A stretch of 45,375 bases of DNA, from NCBI GenBank assembly GCA_025927655.1, contig JAICKY010000005.1, forward strand, positions 1-45,375, given 5' to 3'. The notes under the pieces were generated by a model. That model searched no databases. It was not told the origin of the DNA and was given only the letters and a program-made list of their open reading frames with translations. Positions 2,130 through 10,929 of this stretch are shown in pieces. Position 1 is the first letter of the stretch; every line of letters starts with the position of its first letter. A program made the position numbers and the translations under genes. This DNA is from Candidatus Saccharimonadota bacterium (lineage in GTDB: Bacteria > Patescibacteriota > Saccharimonadia > Saccharimonadales > UBA4665).

Positions 2130-2453
2130 TTAGTTCGTCGACTCGTCAATTATTCGGAAATGTTCTGGTGAAATAGTTTTCATCATATCTAACATTTCGA
2201 CTACAGCTCTCTTCGTGCCAGTGACTAACGCTGGGTCAAAGCCTGAACCGGTTATATGCGACTGGTCATTTATGAACTTATATATAGAGTCAAGCTTATT
2301 TTTGTCATATCCGAGTTGCTTAAGTGCCGCTATCTTCATATATGCTGTTTGCCCGTTAGGTACGCTAAACATTGTGAAGGTGTCCCATACCTTACGCGTA
2401 ATATTTGGTATCGGATAGGCTTTCGCAATTGAGTCGTCTTGAGAGTCGCGCAA
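2130..2453 (-). CDS. Hypothetical protein, TTG start, possibly truncated
   Basis: 107 residues, convergent with the DUF3137-like gene. The first codon available is TTG at 2453, with an AAAGGA RBS 9 bases upstream. The sequence is mixed helical and soluble with no membrane segment; I recognise no family. The gene starts exactly where homology to the recombinase fragment begins on the other strand, so its natural N-terminus may have been replaced by DNA from a recombination event. The predicted protein could therefore be the remainder of a longer one. Confidence 0.4.
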   Translation of the reverse strand: MRDSQDDSIAKAYPIPNITRKVWDTFTMFSVPNGQTAYMKIAALKQLGYDKNKLDSIYKFINDQSHITGSGFDPALVTGTKRAVVEMLDMMKTISPEHFRIIDESTN

Positions 2454-2455
2454 TT

Positions 2456-3169
2456 CTGGTTGTCCTTTCCAACGTAGCCGAGTGTCAAGCTTGCGTTAAT
2501 GCTGGCTGTAAATACCCACGCCTCGTTGGCTTCTGGCAAGGCAACGGCAAGGGCAACCGATACAGGCGCTACAGATGTCGGTGTAAGGAATGCGGCTGCA
2601 TGCTTGGGCTGCGACAAGAATCTTTACATGAGGCAGTGAGTGAAGAACTTGCACAGATGAATCTGTCTACAACGCAGCAGGACAAGCTAAGGGAGACTCT
2701 TCGCAAAGTATGGAGGTCGCACGAGAAGACACTCATTGAGCGTGCCTACATTGCCGATGGCAGAGTAAATGTACTTAAAGACCGCAAAGCGAAAATGCTG
2801 GATAGCCTAGTAGACAATCCGGAGCTAAAAGAGGACATAAGGGAGCGAATAGAAGCGACCAAACTTGAAATAGTCGAAGCTGAAAAAGCCGCAGCTGAAG
2901 CCCATGACTTTGAAAAAGACTTCGATGAATTCATCTCCTTTGCTTTTGATTTCATGGACAACAAAGAGGTCAAGTGGTGGGAGTTAGATAAACAAACGCT
3001 AGTAGTTTATAAACAAATTGTTTTTCCGGGTGGAATACAGGTCACGCCAAATAAAAAAGTTTATATACCAAAAATTAGCCCGATTTACACCTTTAAAAAC
3101 CAAAAAACGCCCCAAAATGAGGCGATTTTCGGTCAAATTACTGATACTGGAGGTGCAGCGCACAGATAA
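2456..3169 (+). pseudogene. C-terminal remnant of a large serine recombinase
   Basis: The frame encodes the zinc-ribbon and coiled-coil half of a large serine recombinase and aligns by eye with the intact copy at 9271. Shared features are ECxxC followed by KYPRLVG, a second CKEC pair, the EKTLIER(A/L)YIA(D/E)G helix, and the WW-LDK and KQI-FP-G-Q strands. Homology begins near 2456; the catalytic domain and recombinase domain are absent, and bases upstream read into an unrelated minus-strand gene. The frame then runs past the expected C-terminus to a chance stop at 3169. It looks like a scar of an earlier or nested integration. Confidence 0.8.
3100..3129 (-). terminator. Minus-strand terminator inside the recombinase remnant
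   Basis: Read on the minus strand, CGCC-TCATTTTGG-GGCG is followed by TTTTTT. It sits at the same place relative to the recombinase C-terminus as the hairpin that abuts tRNA-Lys at 10785-10806. That suggests both recombinases carried a terminator facing a target tRNA. Confidence 0.5.
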
Positions 3170-3552: not shown

Positions 3553-4650
3553 ATGCCTGACAAAACTGTATTTACCTGCGACCTTTTTGAATTAAACGTT
3601 GTAGACCACAAGCTGAAGTGTGTTTTTAAATCGGGCAATATCGCTAATACCTTTATGCAGACTGAGCTATTCTCAAAGCTGCTCAGTGCCTACACCACGG
3701 ATAATGATGGTGTTTGGCAACCAGGTAGCAGAACTGACTTTGAAATTGTGGGCTGGCCTAAGCATTTAAGTTGGCAACGAACTGGCGAGAAGAGTGTTGA
3801 GGCGACTACAAGTGATACCGAGGCTATAGACGCATACCAATACGGCGAAATATTGGAGAAGTCGCTTTATAATTTATTGACACGCACAGAAGAAGCTGAC
3901 GGGGGCAGCTATTATCATTTCTCTATCGCTAACAAGAATGAAGTATACGAATATAGCTTTAATGATAGAGCCAGAGTAATAGGTGCGCTTTGTGTTTTGT
4001 TTGATTTGAAAGCTCACCCGCGCGGACACCTGGAAATAAACATACCAACAAAGTATTTAGCAGGTCTGAAATGGCCAATTAGCGAGGCAGACAACGAGCT
4101 TATTTTTCGTTACTATGGCGACCCCAGTAAGACGGCTGATGTTTTGAGAAATGAAGGTTGGTCGCGAGAAGGCAGCGACCCTCACATGTCTGTTTTTAGA
4201 GAGCAGATTAATGGTCAGCAACAGCAGATGTATTTAATATCAACACGTGCGCAATCACGAAGCCAACAAGTGAAGCGCACTGCCATAAAAACAGTATGGC
4301 GGCATCAACTTTTTAAAATGCAAGATTATACTTGTCGCATCTGCCTCAATAACTATGAACACGACCAAGTGCAACTATCGCCCGACCACAGAGTTCCTGT
4401 TATATTTCAGGCAGATAACTTAACTGACGATAATTTCTCGCAAAAACTTATGACACTTTGCAGGTTTTGTAATCAACAAAAACGTGAGTTCACTAAGCGC
4501 ATAGGTGCCGACTATGATTGGACTACAAGCCCATGGGCATATCCTGAGAAGTATAGACTTGAAAGCGCAATAAAGAACTTACAAGAATACGCTAAATTTA
4601 ATGAACTTACGCTGCCTCAAGCGTTAGAGAGGCTTGCTCAAGAACTGTAG
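3553..4650 (+). CDS. HNH endonuclease, probable restriction enzyme of the adjacent C5-methyltransferase
   Basis: 365 residues. A C-terminal HNH domain (about 250-320) contains CRIC (261-264) and CRFC (303-306), which would bind structural zinc, and D278-H279 in SPDHRVP as the metal/catalytic pair. HNH domains of this type cut DNA in many type II restriction enzymes. The first 240 residues match no family I know and would hold specificity. The gene converges on the methyltransferase and overlaps its 3' end by 44 bases, the usual tight linkage of restriction-modification genes. Nuclease activity and target site are inferred, not visible. Confidence 0.75.
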   Translation: MPDKTVFTCDLFELNVVDHKLKCVFKSGNIANTFMQTELFSKLLSAYTTDNDGVWQPGSRTDFEIVGWPKHLSWQRTGEKSVEATTSDTEAIDAYQYGEILEKSLYNLLTRTEEADGGSYYHFSIANKNEVYEYSFNDRARVIGALCVLFDLKAHPRGHLEINIPTKYLAGLKWPISEADNELIFRYYGDPSKTADVLRNEGWSREGSDPHMSVFREQINGQQQQMYLISTRAQSRSQQVKRTAIKTVWRHQLFKMQDYTCRICLNNYEHDQVQLSPDHRVPVIFQADNLTDDNFSQKLMTLCRFCNQQKREFTKRIGADYDWTTSPWAYPEKYRLESAIKNLQEYAKFNELTLPQALERLAQEL

Positions 4651-6631
4651 CTATTGGCACTGGCACGGGGTTTTTTTGAATGTTTAGGTTCGTGCGGTCC
4701 AATACGTCTTTTGGCTTTTGGCTTAAAGCCTTGTTAGCTAGGTCGTTATATTTTGATATTGCACTTGCCGCTGCAAAGGCTAGCTGAGATGGTACAGCAT
4801 TACCAACCTGCCTATAAACAGATGTCATTGAACCATAAAATTCAAAATCTAGTGGAAACCCTTGTATGACCGCAGCTTCCCTACAAGTAATCCTACGAGT
4901 ATTTGACGGGTGATGTATTATCATTGCGCCACCTTTTGTGTCACCTCTTGCAGTTATAGTAGGCGATGGCTTATCTGGGTCTACTGCACGATTAGAAATA
5001 TAACCGTTGAATTTTAATTTAAATGCAGAGTAAACATGATTTTTTAAATTGTGTTCCCCGTCAGGGTCTGGTAAATCTCGCAGGGCCTCACCAATACTAA
5101 TATGATTATCTTTGTGAGTTGGTTGAGGTGGCCAATCAAAATCAACAACGTCTAAATCTTTTCTTACTCCAAAAATTAGTACACGTTGCCTATTTTGTGG
5201 CGCTCCATAGTTGGCAGCATTTACGAGAGCGTACCTACACCGATACCCAGCTTCGCTAAACTCTTCAACAATCAGTTTGAATACCTCACCTTTTGCAATA
5301 CTTAATATCCCCTTAACGTTTTCTGCCAGGAAATATTTAGGCTGTTTTACAGTTACTGCTTTAACGAAACTTTTGTAAAGAACGTTGCGACTGTCATCTA
5401 CATGTCTCTTCATGTTAGCAACCGAAAAGCCCTGGCACGGGAAGCCACCGATAATAACATCTACATCAGGAATGCTGGCTAAATCTATATCTTCAATGTC
5501 TGCCAATACACAATGGTTACCGAAATTTAATTTATAGGTTTCTACTGAGTCTGAGTCGTTATCGTTTGCCCAAGCTAACTTAAACCCTGCTTTTCTAAAC
5601 CCAAGGTCCAGGCCACCTGCGCCGGAAAAAAGCGAAGCTACGGTTAGTTGTTTTTTATGAGAGTTTTCTTTTGCCACTTGCGCTTCCTTAATTTGATTAA
5701 ATTTTTCGCCCAGTTTTTTGCCGTAGAGAACCGGAACAGCATTGCCAATCTGCCGGTACTGTGAAGTCATTTTACCTTGAAATTTGAATGTAGTTGGGAA
5801 TGTCTGAATGTAGGCACTTTCCATAACGGACATGCGCCTATTTTCTAATGGATGAGGGGTGGCGTTATTACCACCTTTCCCATTGCCCCTAGCTAGTATA
5901 GTCGGGGCTGGTTTGTCGGGATTAGTCTTCCTGTGGCCGGTAAAGTTGCGCTCTACGAATTTGTAGTTAGATTGCAAATCATGCGGAACAACATACTGCT
6001 TGAAATCGGTCATGGCTTGCCCGGCAGTAATCCAGGGTTGTTTACCTATTTCGGGTTTTTCACTGTGAGTTGCTTCTGGGTGGTGTATTTGCATTTCCTT
6101 TGGTAGGTCATCGCGTGTTCCCAGAATTAGAACCCTTTTGCGCATTTGTGGTACGCCGTGGTCTGCCATATTAACAAGCTGATATTCAACATGATAACCA
6201 GCTTCCTGGAAGTCCTTTAAAATCATTTCAAAGACTTTTCCGCCGTCTAAACTAAGAATTCCCTTTACATTTTCCGCAACAAACCATTTAGGCTGTTTAT
6301 CTTTTATAATCCTGAGCATTTCTAAATAGAGCTGATTTCTAGTGTCCTCAGTTGAGCGGAATTTGTTTGCCACCGAAAAGCCCTGGCACGGGAAGCCACC
6401 TACAATTATGTCGGCATCGGGTATATCATCTGAGGCAATCTTACTAATATCGCCACATACTATTCTTTTATCAACGTTCGCCTTATACGTTTCACAACTA
6501 TCGGGGTCAAAATCGTTAGCCCAAATTATATCTAAACCGGCTTGCTTGAGGCCAAGGTCTAAACCGCCAGCGCCAGCAAACAGACTAACAACAGTCTTCG
6601 GCTTACTTTTTTTACCCTCTCTCATAAGCAT
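4607..6631 (-). CDS. Fused double DNA cytosine-C5 methyltransferase
   Basis: 674 residues containing two complete cytosine-C5 methyltransferase domains in one chain. Domain 1 (about 12-315) has motif I FAGAGG (18-23), the catalytic PCQG (81-84), ENV (120-122), QMRKRV (162-167) and the motif X run YRQIGNAVP (292-300). Domain 2 (about 328-630) has FSGAGG (335-340), PCQG (398-401), AENV (436-439), QNRQRV (479-484) and YRQVGNAVP (606-614). Both catalytic cysteines are present, so both heads should be active. The target-recognition segments (about 175-240 and 490-550) differ, so the heads probably read different or opposite-strand sites. TAAAAT ends six bases before the ATG, indicating a leaderless start. 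Confidence 0.92.
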   Translation of the reverse strand: MLMREGKKSKPKTVVSLFAGAGGLDLGLKQAGLDIIWANDFDPDSCETYKANVDKRIVCGDISKIASDDIPDADIIVGGFPCQGFSVANKFRSTEDTRNQLYLEMLRIIKDKQPKWFVAENVKGILSLDGGKVFEMILKDFQEAGYHVEYQLVNMADHGVPQMRKRVLILGTRDDLPKEMQIHHPEATHSEKPEIGKQPWITAGQAMTDFKQYVVPHDLQSNYKFVERNFTGHRKTNPDKPAPTILARGNGKGGNNATPHPLENRRMSVMESAYIQTFPTTFKFQGKMTSQYRQIGNAVPVLYGKKLGEKFNQIKEAQVAKENSHKKQLTVASLFSGAGGLDLGFRKAGFKLAWANDNDSDSVETYKLNFGNHCVLADIEDIDLASIPDVDVIIGGFPCQGFSVANMKRHVDDSRNVLYKSFVKAVTVKQPKYFLAENVKGILSIAKGEVFKLIVEEFSEAGYRCRYALVNAANYGAPQNRQRVLIFGVRKDLDVVDFDWPPQPTHKDNHISIGEALRDLPDPDGEHNLKNHVYSAFKLKFNGYISNRAVDPDKPSPTITARGDTKGGAMIIHHPSNTRRITCREAAVIQGFPLDFEFYGSMTSVYRQVGNAVPSQLAFAAASAISKYNDLANKALSQKPKDVLDRTNLNIQKNPVPVPIATVLEQASLTLEAA

Positions 6632-8454: not shown

Positions 8455-8487
8455 AAGCCCCCAAAACGCTTTGCTGGGGGCTTTTTA
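8455..8487 (+). terminator. Strong intrinsic terminator
   Basis: AAGCCCCCA (8455-8463) pairs with TGGGGGCTT (8475-8483), followed by a T run. It closes the transcript of the 275-residue gene and separates it from the recombinase module. Confidence 0.85.
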
Positions 8488-8545
8488 GTTAAAATGACCA
8501 CTTCATGTGGCCTAGTAAATTAATTTCAATTTTAAGGAGTAAACT

Positions 8546-9019
8546 ATGGAAAATAAGCAAAAAGCTGTCGCATATCTACGTGCTGCGACAGGTACAAAAA
8601 TATCAGACAGTGAAAGTGTTGCCATGCAAAAAAGGCATATATTTAAAGCTGCTGAAAGGCAATCTATAGAGATTGTACGTTGGTTTGAGGTATTAGGCCA
8701 AGAACCGCAAGAGACCCTAAACGAGATAATTGCGTACTGTAAAGCTGACCCTGAAATTAAGTATCTAATAGTCGCCTATCCTGACCGACTGGCACGGTCA
8801 GCTCGGACGTACCTTTATTGGAGAGTAGCTTTTGAGGAGCTGGGAGTGGACGTTAGGAGCGCAGACAACTTATCTGCCACTGCTGCGAATAGTCCTATGA
8901 ATAACTTCATGGAACTATTGATGATGGCTGCACAAGAGTTTGACCACGAACAACGCTCTAAGGCAATTAGGGACGGATTGCAACGTAAGAAATCGCTGGA
9001 GCAGCCTATGGAGAAATAA
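8546..9019 (+). CDS. Stand-alone resolvase domain with the catalytic serine replaced by alanine
   Basis: 157 residues covering only the N-terminal catalytic domain of a serine recombinase; it aligns over its length with residues 1-145 of the intact recombinase downstream. YLRAAT (10-15) stands where the active enzyme has LCRVST, so the nucleophilic serine is Ala14. The arginines of the PDRLAR motif (R81, R84) remain. The gene has a near-ideal RBS (AAGGAG, eight bases before ATG) and an uninterrupted frame, so it looks maintained rather than decayed. It cannot cut DNA by the family mechanism; it may act as an inactive partner or regulator of the recombinase. Confidence 0.85.
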   Translation: MENKQKAVAYLRAATGTKISDSESVAMQKRHIFKAAERQSIEIVRWFEVLGQEPQETLNEIIAYCKADPEIKYLIVAYPDRLARSARTYLYWRVAFEELGVDVRSADNLSATAANSPMNNFMELLMMAAQEFDHEQRSKAIRDGLQRKKSLEQPMEK

Positions 9020-9026
9020 GGGTAGA

Positions 9027-9063
9027 TGTCGGCTAACTTCGCTTTGACAGTTGTTGGCCGACA
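9027..9063 (+). terminator. Hairpin after the inactive resolvase gene
   Basis: TGTCGGC (9027-9033) pairs with GCCGACA (9057-9063) around a 23-base loop, followed by AAACCTC rather than a clean T run. It is either a weak terminator or a processing hairpin between the inactive resolvase and the 43-residue gene. Confidence 0.35.
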
Positions 9064-9092: not shown

Positions 9093-9224
9093 ATGAAGCC
9101 TTCATCTGGTAGCGACGCCAATGCCAGCAAACCCATGCCTACGGTTAAGCAGGTTGATGAAGCGTTTGACACTTTAGCGGCATTTCTGTTTGAGCAATAT
9201 CGTAAATACAAAGAAGAAGTGTAA
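9093..9224 (+). CDS. Small protein (43 residues) between the two recombinase genes
   Basis: ATG at 9093 has an RBS (GGAG, seven bases upstream) and opens 43 codons ending TAA at 9224. The product begins MKPSSGSDANASKPMP, then forms an amphipathic helix (TVKQVDEAFDTLAAFLFEQY) and a charged tail. It is too short to classify. Its fixed position between the inactive and active recombinases suggests a small accessory factor, possibly for recombination direction; that is inference only. Confidence 0.6.
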   Translation: MKPSSGSDANASKPMPTVKQVDEAFDTLAAFLFEQYRKYKEEV

Positions 9225-9270: not shown

Positions 9271-10929
9271 ATGAAAGAAATAAAGGAAAAAGCAATCGCT
9301 TTATGTAGGGTTTCTACTAAAGGACAAATGCTAGATGGCAACCTTGAACCTCAAGAACAAAGCATTATAAGAGCTGCTGACATACTAAACGTTGAGGTCG
9401 TCCAATGGTGGAAAATAGCACAGTCCAGCAGAAAGGGTAAAAACATAAAGCGGAAAGACCTGAACGAAATGCTGGACTTCTGCAAACGTCATAAATCGGT
9501 CAAATTCCTAATCGTAGATGAGCCAGATAGGTTTATGAGAAGTATTGAGGAATACTACTGGTGGAAAGTGAACTTCAAACTTGCGGGTGTGCAACTTAGG
9601 TTCGCAACTAAGCCAGAAGTAGACCCTGAGGAAGATAGGGCTGTATTTGATGAACTTATTGATGTATACCGTGCGGAGCAAAGTAATAACGAACGTATTA
9701 AGAAAACTCCCGAGAAGATGATGGCAAAAATTAGGGCTGGCTATTACCCCTCCAATCCAAAAACTGGATATAAAAAGTCTGACGTACCTGGCTTCCATAT
9801 ACCCGATGAACCAAACTGGTCTGCCCTGCGAGACACCTTTAAGGAAATGTGCAGAGGAGAGCTGACAGTTAGCGAAGGGCTTAAGAAGGCCACAGAACGT
9901 GGCTTGAGGACTAAAAATTATGGTCCTAAAGCAGTGGGGGGCAAGCCAGTAGACATGTATCGCTGGAAAGATTTAATGCGCGAACCGTATTACTGCGGCG
10001 TGGTTAAAATGGGTAACTGGCCTGAAATTAAGCCTAAGGGCTTGCATGAAGCTATGATTACCCCCGAAGAGCATAGAATACTCGTAGCACTAGCAGACAA
10101 TAAAGGGAAAAGGTTCTCCATTAATCGTGATAACCCGTTGTTTCCTTTGTCTAACGAAATGGAATGTTTAGAATGCGCTCAGAAGCACCTGAAATACCCC
10201 CGACTTGTTGGCTACCCTCACAATAACGGCCGCAAGAGAAAGCACTATAAAGTGTACTATCGTTATCGTTGCCGAGAGTGTAATACTAATGTGCTACAAA
10301 GTGTATTACACGAAGAACTAAATAATGTATTAGATGATTTAGTCCTGACTGATGAACAGGTTGCAAGACTCAAGGCGAGCATGGCCAGCAAGTGGCGCAC
10401 CTACGAAAAGACGCTAATTGAGAGGCTATATATTGCGGAGGGTCATTTAGAGAACCTTAAAAGCAAGAAAAGCGAGCTAGTCCAGTCGCTCTCTCGCAAC
10501 CCGGACATAGAAGAAGACATCAAAGCAGAAATTGCCACTATAAAGGAGCAGATTGCTCAGGCTGAGATAGCTGTTACTAACGCCAAGGATTTTGAACGCG
10601 ATTTAGTGGAATTTACGGGCTTTGCATTGGACTACGTTAATAATTGGAGCAAGAATTGGTGGTCGCTGGATAAGGAGTCAATGCGTAAGTGTAAACAAAT
10701 TCTATTTCCTGCTGGATTTCAAATGACACAGGACAAAAAAGTTTACACTCCCGAAATTAGCTTAGTTTACAGTTACGGCACAAATAAAAAAGCGCCCGTA
10801 GGCGCTAATTCTTCTGACGTGGAGGGCCCAGTGGGACTCGAACCCACGACACGAGGCTTAAAAGGCCTCTGCTCTAACCAACTGAGCTATGGGCCCAAAC
10901 CGCAGGGAACAAATTTTGTGCTTGCATAA
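9271..10929 (+). CDS. Large serine recombinase (integrase), reading through tRNA-Lys
   Basis: The frame is 552 codons. The catalytic domain (about 5-145) has the nucleophile S15 in CRVSTKGQ and arginines R87 and R90 in PDRFMR. A recombinase domain (about 150-285) is followed by a zinc ribbon (C299/C302, C334/C337), a coiled coil (about 385-445) and a terminal WW-LDK segment. Family members integrate circular DNA at short att sites. Codons from about 517 onward are the antisense of tRNA-Lys (the familiar GLEPTTRGLKG string), so the last 36 residues come from host DNA and would change on excision. RBS AAAGGA lies six bases before ATG. Confidence 0.9.
   Translation: MKEIKEKAIALCRVSTKGQMLDGNLEPQEQSIIRAADILNVEVVQWWKIAQSSRKGKNIKRKDLNEMLDFCKRHKSVKFLIVDEPDRFMRSIEEYYWWKVNFKLAGVQLRFATKPEVDPEEDRAVFDELIDVYRAEQSNNERIKKTPEKMMAKIRAGYYPSNPKTGYKKSDVPGFHIPDEPNWSALRDTFKEMCRGELTVSEGLKKATERGLRTKNYGPKAVGGKPVDMYRWKDLMREPYYCGVVKMGNWPEIKPKGLHEAMITPEEHRILVALADNKGKRFSINRDNPLFPLSNEMECLECAQKHLKYPRLVGYPHNNGRKRKHYKVYYRYRCRECNTNVLQSVLHEELNNVLDDLVLTDEQVARLKASMASKWRTYEKTLIERLYIAEGHLENLKSKKSELVQSLSRNPDIEEDIKAEIATIKEQIAQAEIAVTNAKDFERDLVEFTGFALDYVNNWSKNWWSLDKESMRKCKQILFPAGFQMTQDKKVYTPEISLVYSYGTNKKAPVGANSSDVEGPVGLEPTTRGLKGLCSNQLSYGPKPQGTNFVLA
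10785..10806 (-). terminator. tRNA-Lys terminator inside the recombinase 3' end
   Basis: On the minus strand AGCGCC-TACG-GGCGCT is followed directly by TTTTTTATTTG. It starts 14 bases after the encoded CCA of tRNA-Lys, the right place for its transcription terminator. The hairpin lies within the recombinase reading frame, so the integrated element supplies it. Confidence 0.8.
10820..10896 (-). tRNA. tRNA-Lys (anticodon UUU), integration target
   Basis: A 77-base cloverleaf on the minus strand with encoded CCA. Acceptor arms GGGCCCA and TGGGCCC pair perfectly, the D stem is GCTC/GAGC, the anticodon loop CTTTTAA gives UUU (Lys), and the T arm is GTGGG-TTCGAGT-CCCAC. The base before CCA (discriminator) is U, whereas tRNA-Lys in E. 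coli and Bacillus has A. Its 3' end faces the recombinase, the usual geometry of integration at a tRNA 3' end. Confidence 0.93.

Follow-up and report, generated by a model that had tools for sequence, protein, structure and literature searches.

Large serine recombinases (LSRs), which include phage integrases, XisF and CcrA/CcrB, are widely used genome-engineering enzymes, and the control of their direction and timing is a central question. CcrA and CcrB are two full-length, active enzymes. For the recombination directionality factors (RDFs) phiC31 gp3, Bxb1 gp47 and CD1234, contacts with the recombinase, where mapped, lie to our knowledge in the zinc/coiled-coil region; that of phiC31 gp3 has reportedly been located in this region of its integrase. 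A different kind of control is known from IS50, where the inhibitor Inh is a truncated transposase made as an alternative product of the transposase gene. Excision by LSRs normally requires an element-encoded partner, as CD1234 is for CD1231, and an S10A substitution in an LSR abolishes recombination (PMC5025042). Tn3 resolvase still recombines when the subunits at sites II and III carry S10A, but not when those at site I do, and dead subunits can take part usefully at these accessory sites of res (PMC9943657).

Here we describe a short gene for a serine recombinase catalytic domain that stands upstream of an LSR in a window of 45,375 nucleotides, the whole stretch of Candidatus Saccharimonadota DNA that was analysed. 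With enzymes of the catalytic-domain family PF00239, such as TP901-1 integrase and gamma-delta resolvase, the short protein shares the family, the predicted fold, helix E and the arginine triad, but it has alanine in place of the catalytic serine, no equivalent of R45 and no DNA-binding domain. The neighbouring gene is an LSR; the catalytic domains are about 32% identical, whereas the recombinase, zinc and coiled-coil domains of LSRs are absent from the short protein. Like an RDF, it would be an element-encoded partner of the integrase system, although the RDFs named above are, as far as we know, unrelated to it in sequence. It resembles IS50 Inh as a defective recombinase relative from the same element, for which inactive mixed complexes can be proposed; unlike Inh, it comes from a gene of its own, old and divergent, and its inhibitory action is a proposal. 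The subunits of Tn3 resolvase, in contrast, are identical, come from one gene and have DNA-binding domains, whereas the short protein cannot bind a site alone. In the open-licence literature searched, a part of the whole, we found no description of such an arrangement, whether under dead paralogs of serine integrases or among serine recombinases of Saccharibacteria.

The integrase module in the window

The module comprises the following features.

8455..8483, forward strand: GC-rich stem followed by a T-run, weakly terminator-like (fold z = -0.56), just 5' of the short gene
8534..8539, forward strand: Shine-Dalgarno sequence AAGGAG of the short gene (from the sequence)
8546..9019, forward strand: short gene for a serine recombinase catalytic domain of 157 aa, dead by its residues, with RAAT for RVST (ORF, Pfam, alignment, AlphaFold)
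9027..9063, forward strand: 11-bp hairpin between the short gene and the 43-aa gene, a possible attenuator or operator (fold z = -3.4)
9093..9224, forward strand: 43-aa gene (..VDEAFDTLAAFLFEQYRKYKEEV) whose small-protein family recurs directly upstream of many LSRs (ORF, family search)
9271..10929, forward strand: LSR of 552 aa with CRVST intact (ORF, Pfam)
10820..10896, reverse strand: tRNA-Lys(TTT) overlapping the 3' end of the LSR, the probable attachment site (tRNA call)

This layout bears out an earlier note on the same DNA, which had described a domain-only gene of 157 codons with a near-ideal ribosome-binding site, followed by a 43-residue gene and then by a full-length recombinase with its serine intact. 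The stem at the 5' side is a weak hint of a separate transcription unit beginning beyond it, and is not among the predictions of a consensus terminator scan. Since the final codons of the LSR run antisense through the tRNA-Lys gene, the 3' end of the LSR marks a probable integration site, and the integrase tail would be partly supplied by the attachment site. C-termini that read through an antisense tRNA in this way (GPVGLEPTTRGLKG..CSNQLSYGP) were seen in the window (10790-10929) and at loci L034 (4245-5876) and L035 (6022-7830), with similar tails in G158 and G300. A direct repeat of the tRNA-Lys end, which would have placed the second boundary of the element, was sought within the window and not found.

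Further upstream, a C-terminal remnant of a second LSR (2405-3169), 44% identical to the resident enzyme, points to visits by related or older elements to this region. The interval 3553-6631, in which an HNH-endonuclease-like gene lies next to an ORF with two C5-cytosine methyltransferase domains (674 aa), is probably restriction-modification cargo.

An intact resolvase domain without the catalytic serine

The short gene begins with ATG and its frame is intact. The only Pfam match of the protein is to the resolvase N-terminal domain PF00239 (E=5.8e-16, residues 7-150; 59.3 bits against a cut-off of 23.3), with no recombinase domain, zinc ribbon or coiled coil, and this score and the resolvase fold place it in that family by sequence and by structure; against XisF (NF041201) it scores 32.5 bits, below the required 375. 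The ORF ends after helix E, leaving the catalytic domain only, with no DNA-binding domain. At this composition, 157 open codons would arise by chance with P ~4e-5, and the in-frame codon usage resembles that of the LSR (0.070 and 0.075 bits/codon, against -0.155, sd 0.072, for shuffled sequences). This is an intact, expressed-looking gene.

Where the neighbouring LSR has CRVST, the short protein has YLRAAT (codons CTA CGT GCT GCG ACA), and both codons and alignment confirm alanine at the nucleophile position (S10), as the earlier note had read it. Its further claim that the arginines of PDRLAR remain also stands, equivalents of R8, R68 and R71 all being kept in the alignment. The R45 equivalent is lost as well: it is Gln within a shortened loop of the multiple alignment, at a position that is Arg in 132 of 149 LSR-length rows. 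Judged by these residues, the protein should be catalytically dead.

An AlphaFold2 model (pLDDT 88, pTM 0.79), made from an input alignment of 27 sequences (the window protein and its relatives), has a resolvase alpha/beta core, and its helix E runs from residue 117 to 152, a length of 36 residues. The best matches among solved folds are the catalytic domain of TP901-1 integrase (3bvp, Foldseek E=1.6e-6), other serine recombinases and gamma-delta resolvase tetramers; a sequence search of the PDB gave no match, so that the fold search alone provided these. With the predicted core and helix, the short protein appears capable of making the dimer contact of recombinases.

Short companions at other loci

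Searched against 393 genomes of the same order, the window protein found matches in 118, nearly all of them through full-length LSRs. Profile searches combined with local ORF analysis of about 150 LSR loci added further short ORFs upstream of LSRs. Of 146 distinct LSRs for which 1 kb or more of upstream sequence was available, 9 are preceded on the same strand by an intact short catalytic-domain ORF, a share of about 6% that is an upper estimate, biased upward, because the loci were partly sampled by similarity to the short gene. About 136 of the 146 have no upstream short gene, and G346 carries a decayed fragment of 58 aa upstream of its LSR and on the same strand. None of the 50 LSRs for which the downstream sequence extends 1 kb or more is followed by a short copy, and this contrast between upstream and downstream is not statistically strong by itself. 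Apart from the window gene, the short genes are as follows, with the residues at the active-site motif.

G158: 187 aa, CSVGT
G124 (= G667): 257 aa, LRTNK, with an apparent recombinase domain and without zinc or coiled coil
G300 and G731: two short genes in tandem at each locus
G228 and G236: 112 and 113 aa, ARVAC
G510: ORF of 190 aa, with a likely start that gives about 161 aa, CRTAA; the genome lies outside the order
G670: 144 aa, CRASG
G112: dead orphan at L037 8429-8887, LKAVD, with no LSR within the 15 kb examined

Except for the orphan in G112, every short gene stands directly upstream of an LSR on the same strand, and a Shine-Dalgarno sequence was found in each one inspected. The window gene has the full set of features: a short upstream ORF on the strand of the LSR, an intact frame and a lost catalytic residue. 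In the close group of the window LSR (more than 50% identity: window, G158, G670 and G373), three of the four have a short gene, G373 being the one without. When the window protein alone was used, pattern scans of genomes and viral contigs and tblastn against phages and plasmids returned no relative, and neither did scans of viral contigs with the LSR alignment and two other short proteins. L230 (G302 C1) has a tandem pair of LSRs separated by 271 bp, each of which carries RVST.

The residue comparison covered 12 short proteins, namely the upstream ones and the orphan. Serine is lost in 11, replaced by Ala, Gly, Asn, Leu or Val, and the twelfth (G670) keeps it with Asn at R68 and Lys at D67, R68 being kept by all LSRs. 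The catalytic serine is present in all 148 LSRs; in the single alignment of 149 LSR-length rows, R8, R68 and R71 occur in all and serine in 148, and the one row without it is, from its length, probably the 257-aa G124 short protein that passed the length filter. Among the dead short proteins the structural residues A36, L58, F96, G100 and V101 are invariant, whereas the catalytic ones are not. Broken pieces of LSRs (G244, G262, G164, G146), on the other hand, have stops or frame changes with the serine motif still intact, so that inactivity is a property of the intact short genes. The earlier note had proposed that the gene would be a decaying remnant if relatives usually carried the serine, or if it were absent or broken at most related loci. 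On the first count the gene holds up, with serine kept in 1 of 12 and that one lacking R68; on the second it does not, with the short gene absent at about 136 of 146 loci.

G300 B has only a short helix E (residues 120-138), and the G228 and G236 proteins end before this helix. Pairing through helix E therefore cannot be a general mechanism, and other contacts must serve in these members.

Divergence, selection and origin

Between G228 and G236, dN/dS is 0.080 for the short gene (95% bootstrap 0.037-0.154; dS 0.98), 0.050 for the LSR and 0.061 for a small gene of 59 aa, and the alanine that replaces the serine is encoded by different codons, GCG and GCT, the residue having been kept through a silent change. 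This dead short gene is under strong purifying selection. The comparison of dN/dS that the earlier note had proposed thus speaks for maintenance in this pair, whereas for the window copy against G158 it is saturated, as it also is for window/G670 and G300/G731; the G124 and G667 genes are identical. No close relative of the window gene was found in the collections searched, and its own maintenance by selection is inferred. Its nearest companion, in G158, is 33% identical to it, against 66% for the two LSRs, and short proteins diverge faster than their own LSRs elsewhere too (34% against 79%).

In trees of the catalytic domain, where long-branch attraction is a risk, the short proteins sit on long branches apart from their own LSRs, while the LSRs of the window, G158 and G670, each with a short gene, form a supported group (100/95). 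Constraining the window protein to its own LSR group gave a tree 30.8 lnL worse (p-AU 0.086, not significant), so a recent duplication of the adjacent LSR is disfavoured, not rejected; for G124, an origin as a copy of its own LSR was rejected (p 0.02). These tests indicate that the short genes are probably not recent copies of their own LSRs. A tree that keeps eight Saccharibacterial short proteins in one clade has a slightly better fit than the unconstrained one (+4.0 lnL, p-AU 0.59), which makes a single origin possible and leaves it unproven. That they are one old, dedicated lineage of pseudo-recombinases, travelling with LSR modules and controlling integration or excision by joining LSR complexes, and so a control subunit that is itself kin to the integrase, is a tentative idea that we consider somewhat unlikely.

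Possible function of the short gene

The earlier note had proposed that the dead copy controls the direction or timing of integration. Of this, the part that stands is a protein dead by its sequence, with a recombinase fold and a dimerisation helix, that recurs at other loci, in one pair under selection. The main idea of the note gains strength, the arrangement being a recurring one and not that of a single gene; control of direction or timing is a hypothesis. Our preferred reading, which we hold at about even confidence, is that the window gene encodes a pseudo-recombinase that has been kept because it regulates the LSR next to it, as a brake or in direction control. Surfaces of its catalytic domain (helix E in the window copy) would bind LSR subunits, and the mixed complexes would be unable to cleave all four strands, so that integration or excision might be held in check, or limited in timing or direction. 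For recombination, every crossover half-site must hold an active subunit, which makes mixed assembly through helix E the simplest model for the window copy, and by analogy with the S10A variants of Tn3 resolvase and an LSR a brake would be the default expectation. The model presumes physical contact of the short protein with the LSR, and inhibition or direction control. Against it count the roughly 136 of 146 LSRs that do without such a gene, the faster divergence of the short proteins than of their LSRs, and the short or missing helix E of several relatives.

It is unlikely, in our view, that the window copy is instead what is left of a duplicated or older integrase in decay, still open by chance. 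Most LSR loci do lack a short gene, the window copy has no close homolog in the collections searched, an LSR remnant (2405-3169) lies in the same array and G346 shows what a decayed short gene looks like. The open frame, good Shine-Dalgarno sequence, LSR-like codon usage and confident predicted fold nevertheless argue against decay, as do the LSR pieces that carry stops and yet keep serine, the conservation of dead companions in G300/G731 and the low dN/dS in G228/G236; nor does the window gene look like a fresh copy of its LSR, given the constrained tree (worse, not significantly so). A role as an RDF, joining the LSR on attL/attR and permitting excision, would suit a gene within an integrase module and the need of LSRs for an element-encoded excision partner, but we think it quite unlikely for a protein that consists of the N-terminal domain fold alone, away from the zinc/coiled-coil contact of mapped RDFs, that is absent from most LSR loci and that has a better-distributed competitor in the small gene upstream of the LSR.

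Re-use of the resolvase fold in a separate regulator, for instance of module transcription, would accommodate the orphan in G112 and the members that lack helix E and all DNA-binding parts; the close association of all other short genes with LSRs, and the want of a DNA-binding domain in the window protein itself, make this distinctly unlikely. Very unlikely, finally, is an exclusion or immunity factor that poisons the recombinases of related elements when they compete for the tRNA: the LSR remnant indicates that related elements have been in this region, and the fast divergence of the short proteins would fit an arms race, whereas evolution is slow in G228/G236, the pair with the strongest conservation.

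If retention as a regulatory partner is the right reading, such conserved companions, made of an inactive integrase domain, would represent a kind of control factor that we did not find described in the literature searched; they would offer natural brakes or switches for LSRs and would make it possible to test how mobile elements are regulated in the poorly known Patescibacteria.

Small genes upstream of large serine recombinases

The 43-aa protein of the window has no match in Pfam, NCBIfam or PHROGs. It is not a mere bystander: its family (..ELASFLYxxYxxxK..) occurs upstream of 32 LSRs, and a second small-protein family (..VKEARKILG..LSDDQ..) upstream of 66, so that 98 of 147 LSRs carry one or the other. 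These genes encode about 40-100 aa, mostly end within ~130 bp of the LSR start and include, besides window 9093-9224, L034 6579-6764. They are candidates for universal integrase cofactors or RDFs, and thus form a second set of candidate cofactors beside many LSRs. The dead short gene precedes the small gene in the window and G124 and follows it in G158, G300, G731, G228, G236 and G670, an order so variable that it argues for repeated rearrangement or several arrivals. A gene of 75 aa was also seen between a dead short gene and the LSR at L164 (2851-3078) and L168 (1387-1614), with a dN/dS of 0.26.
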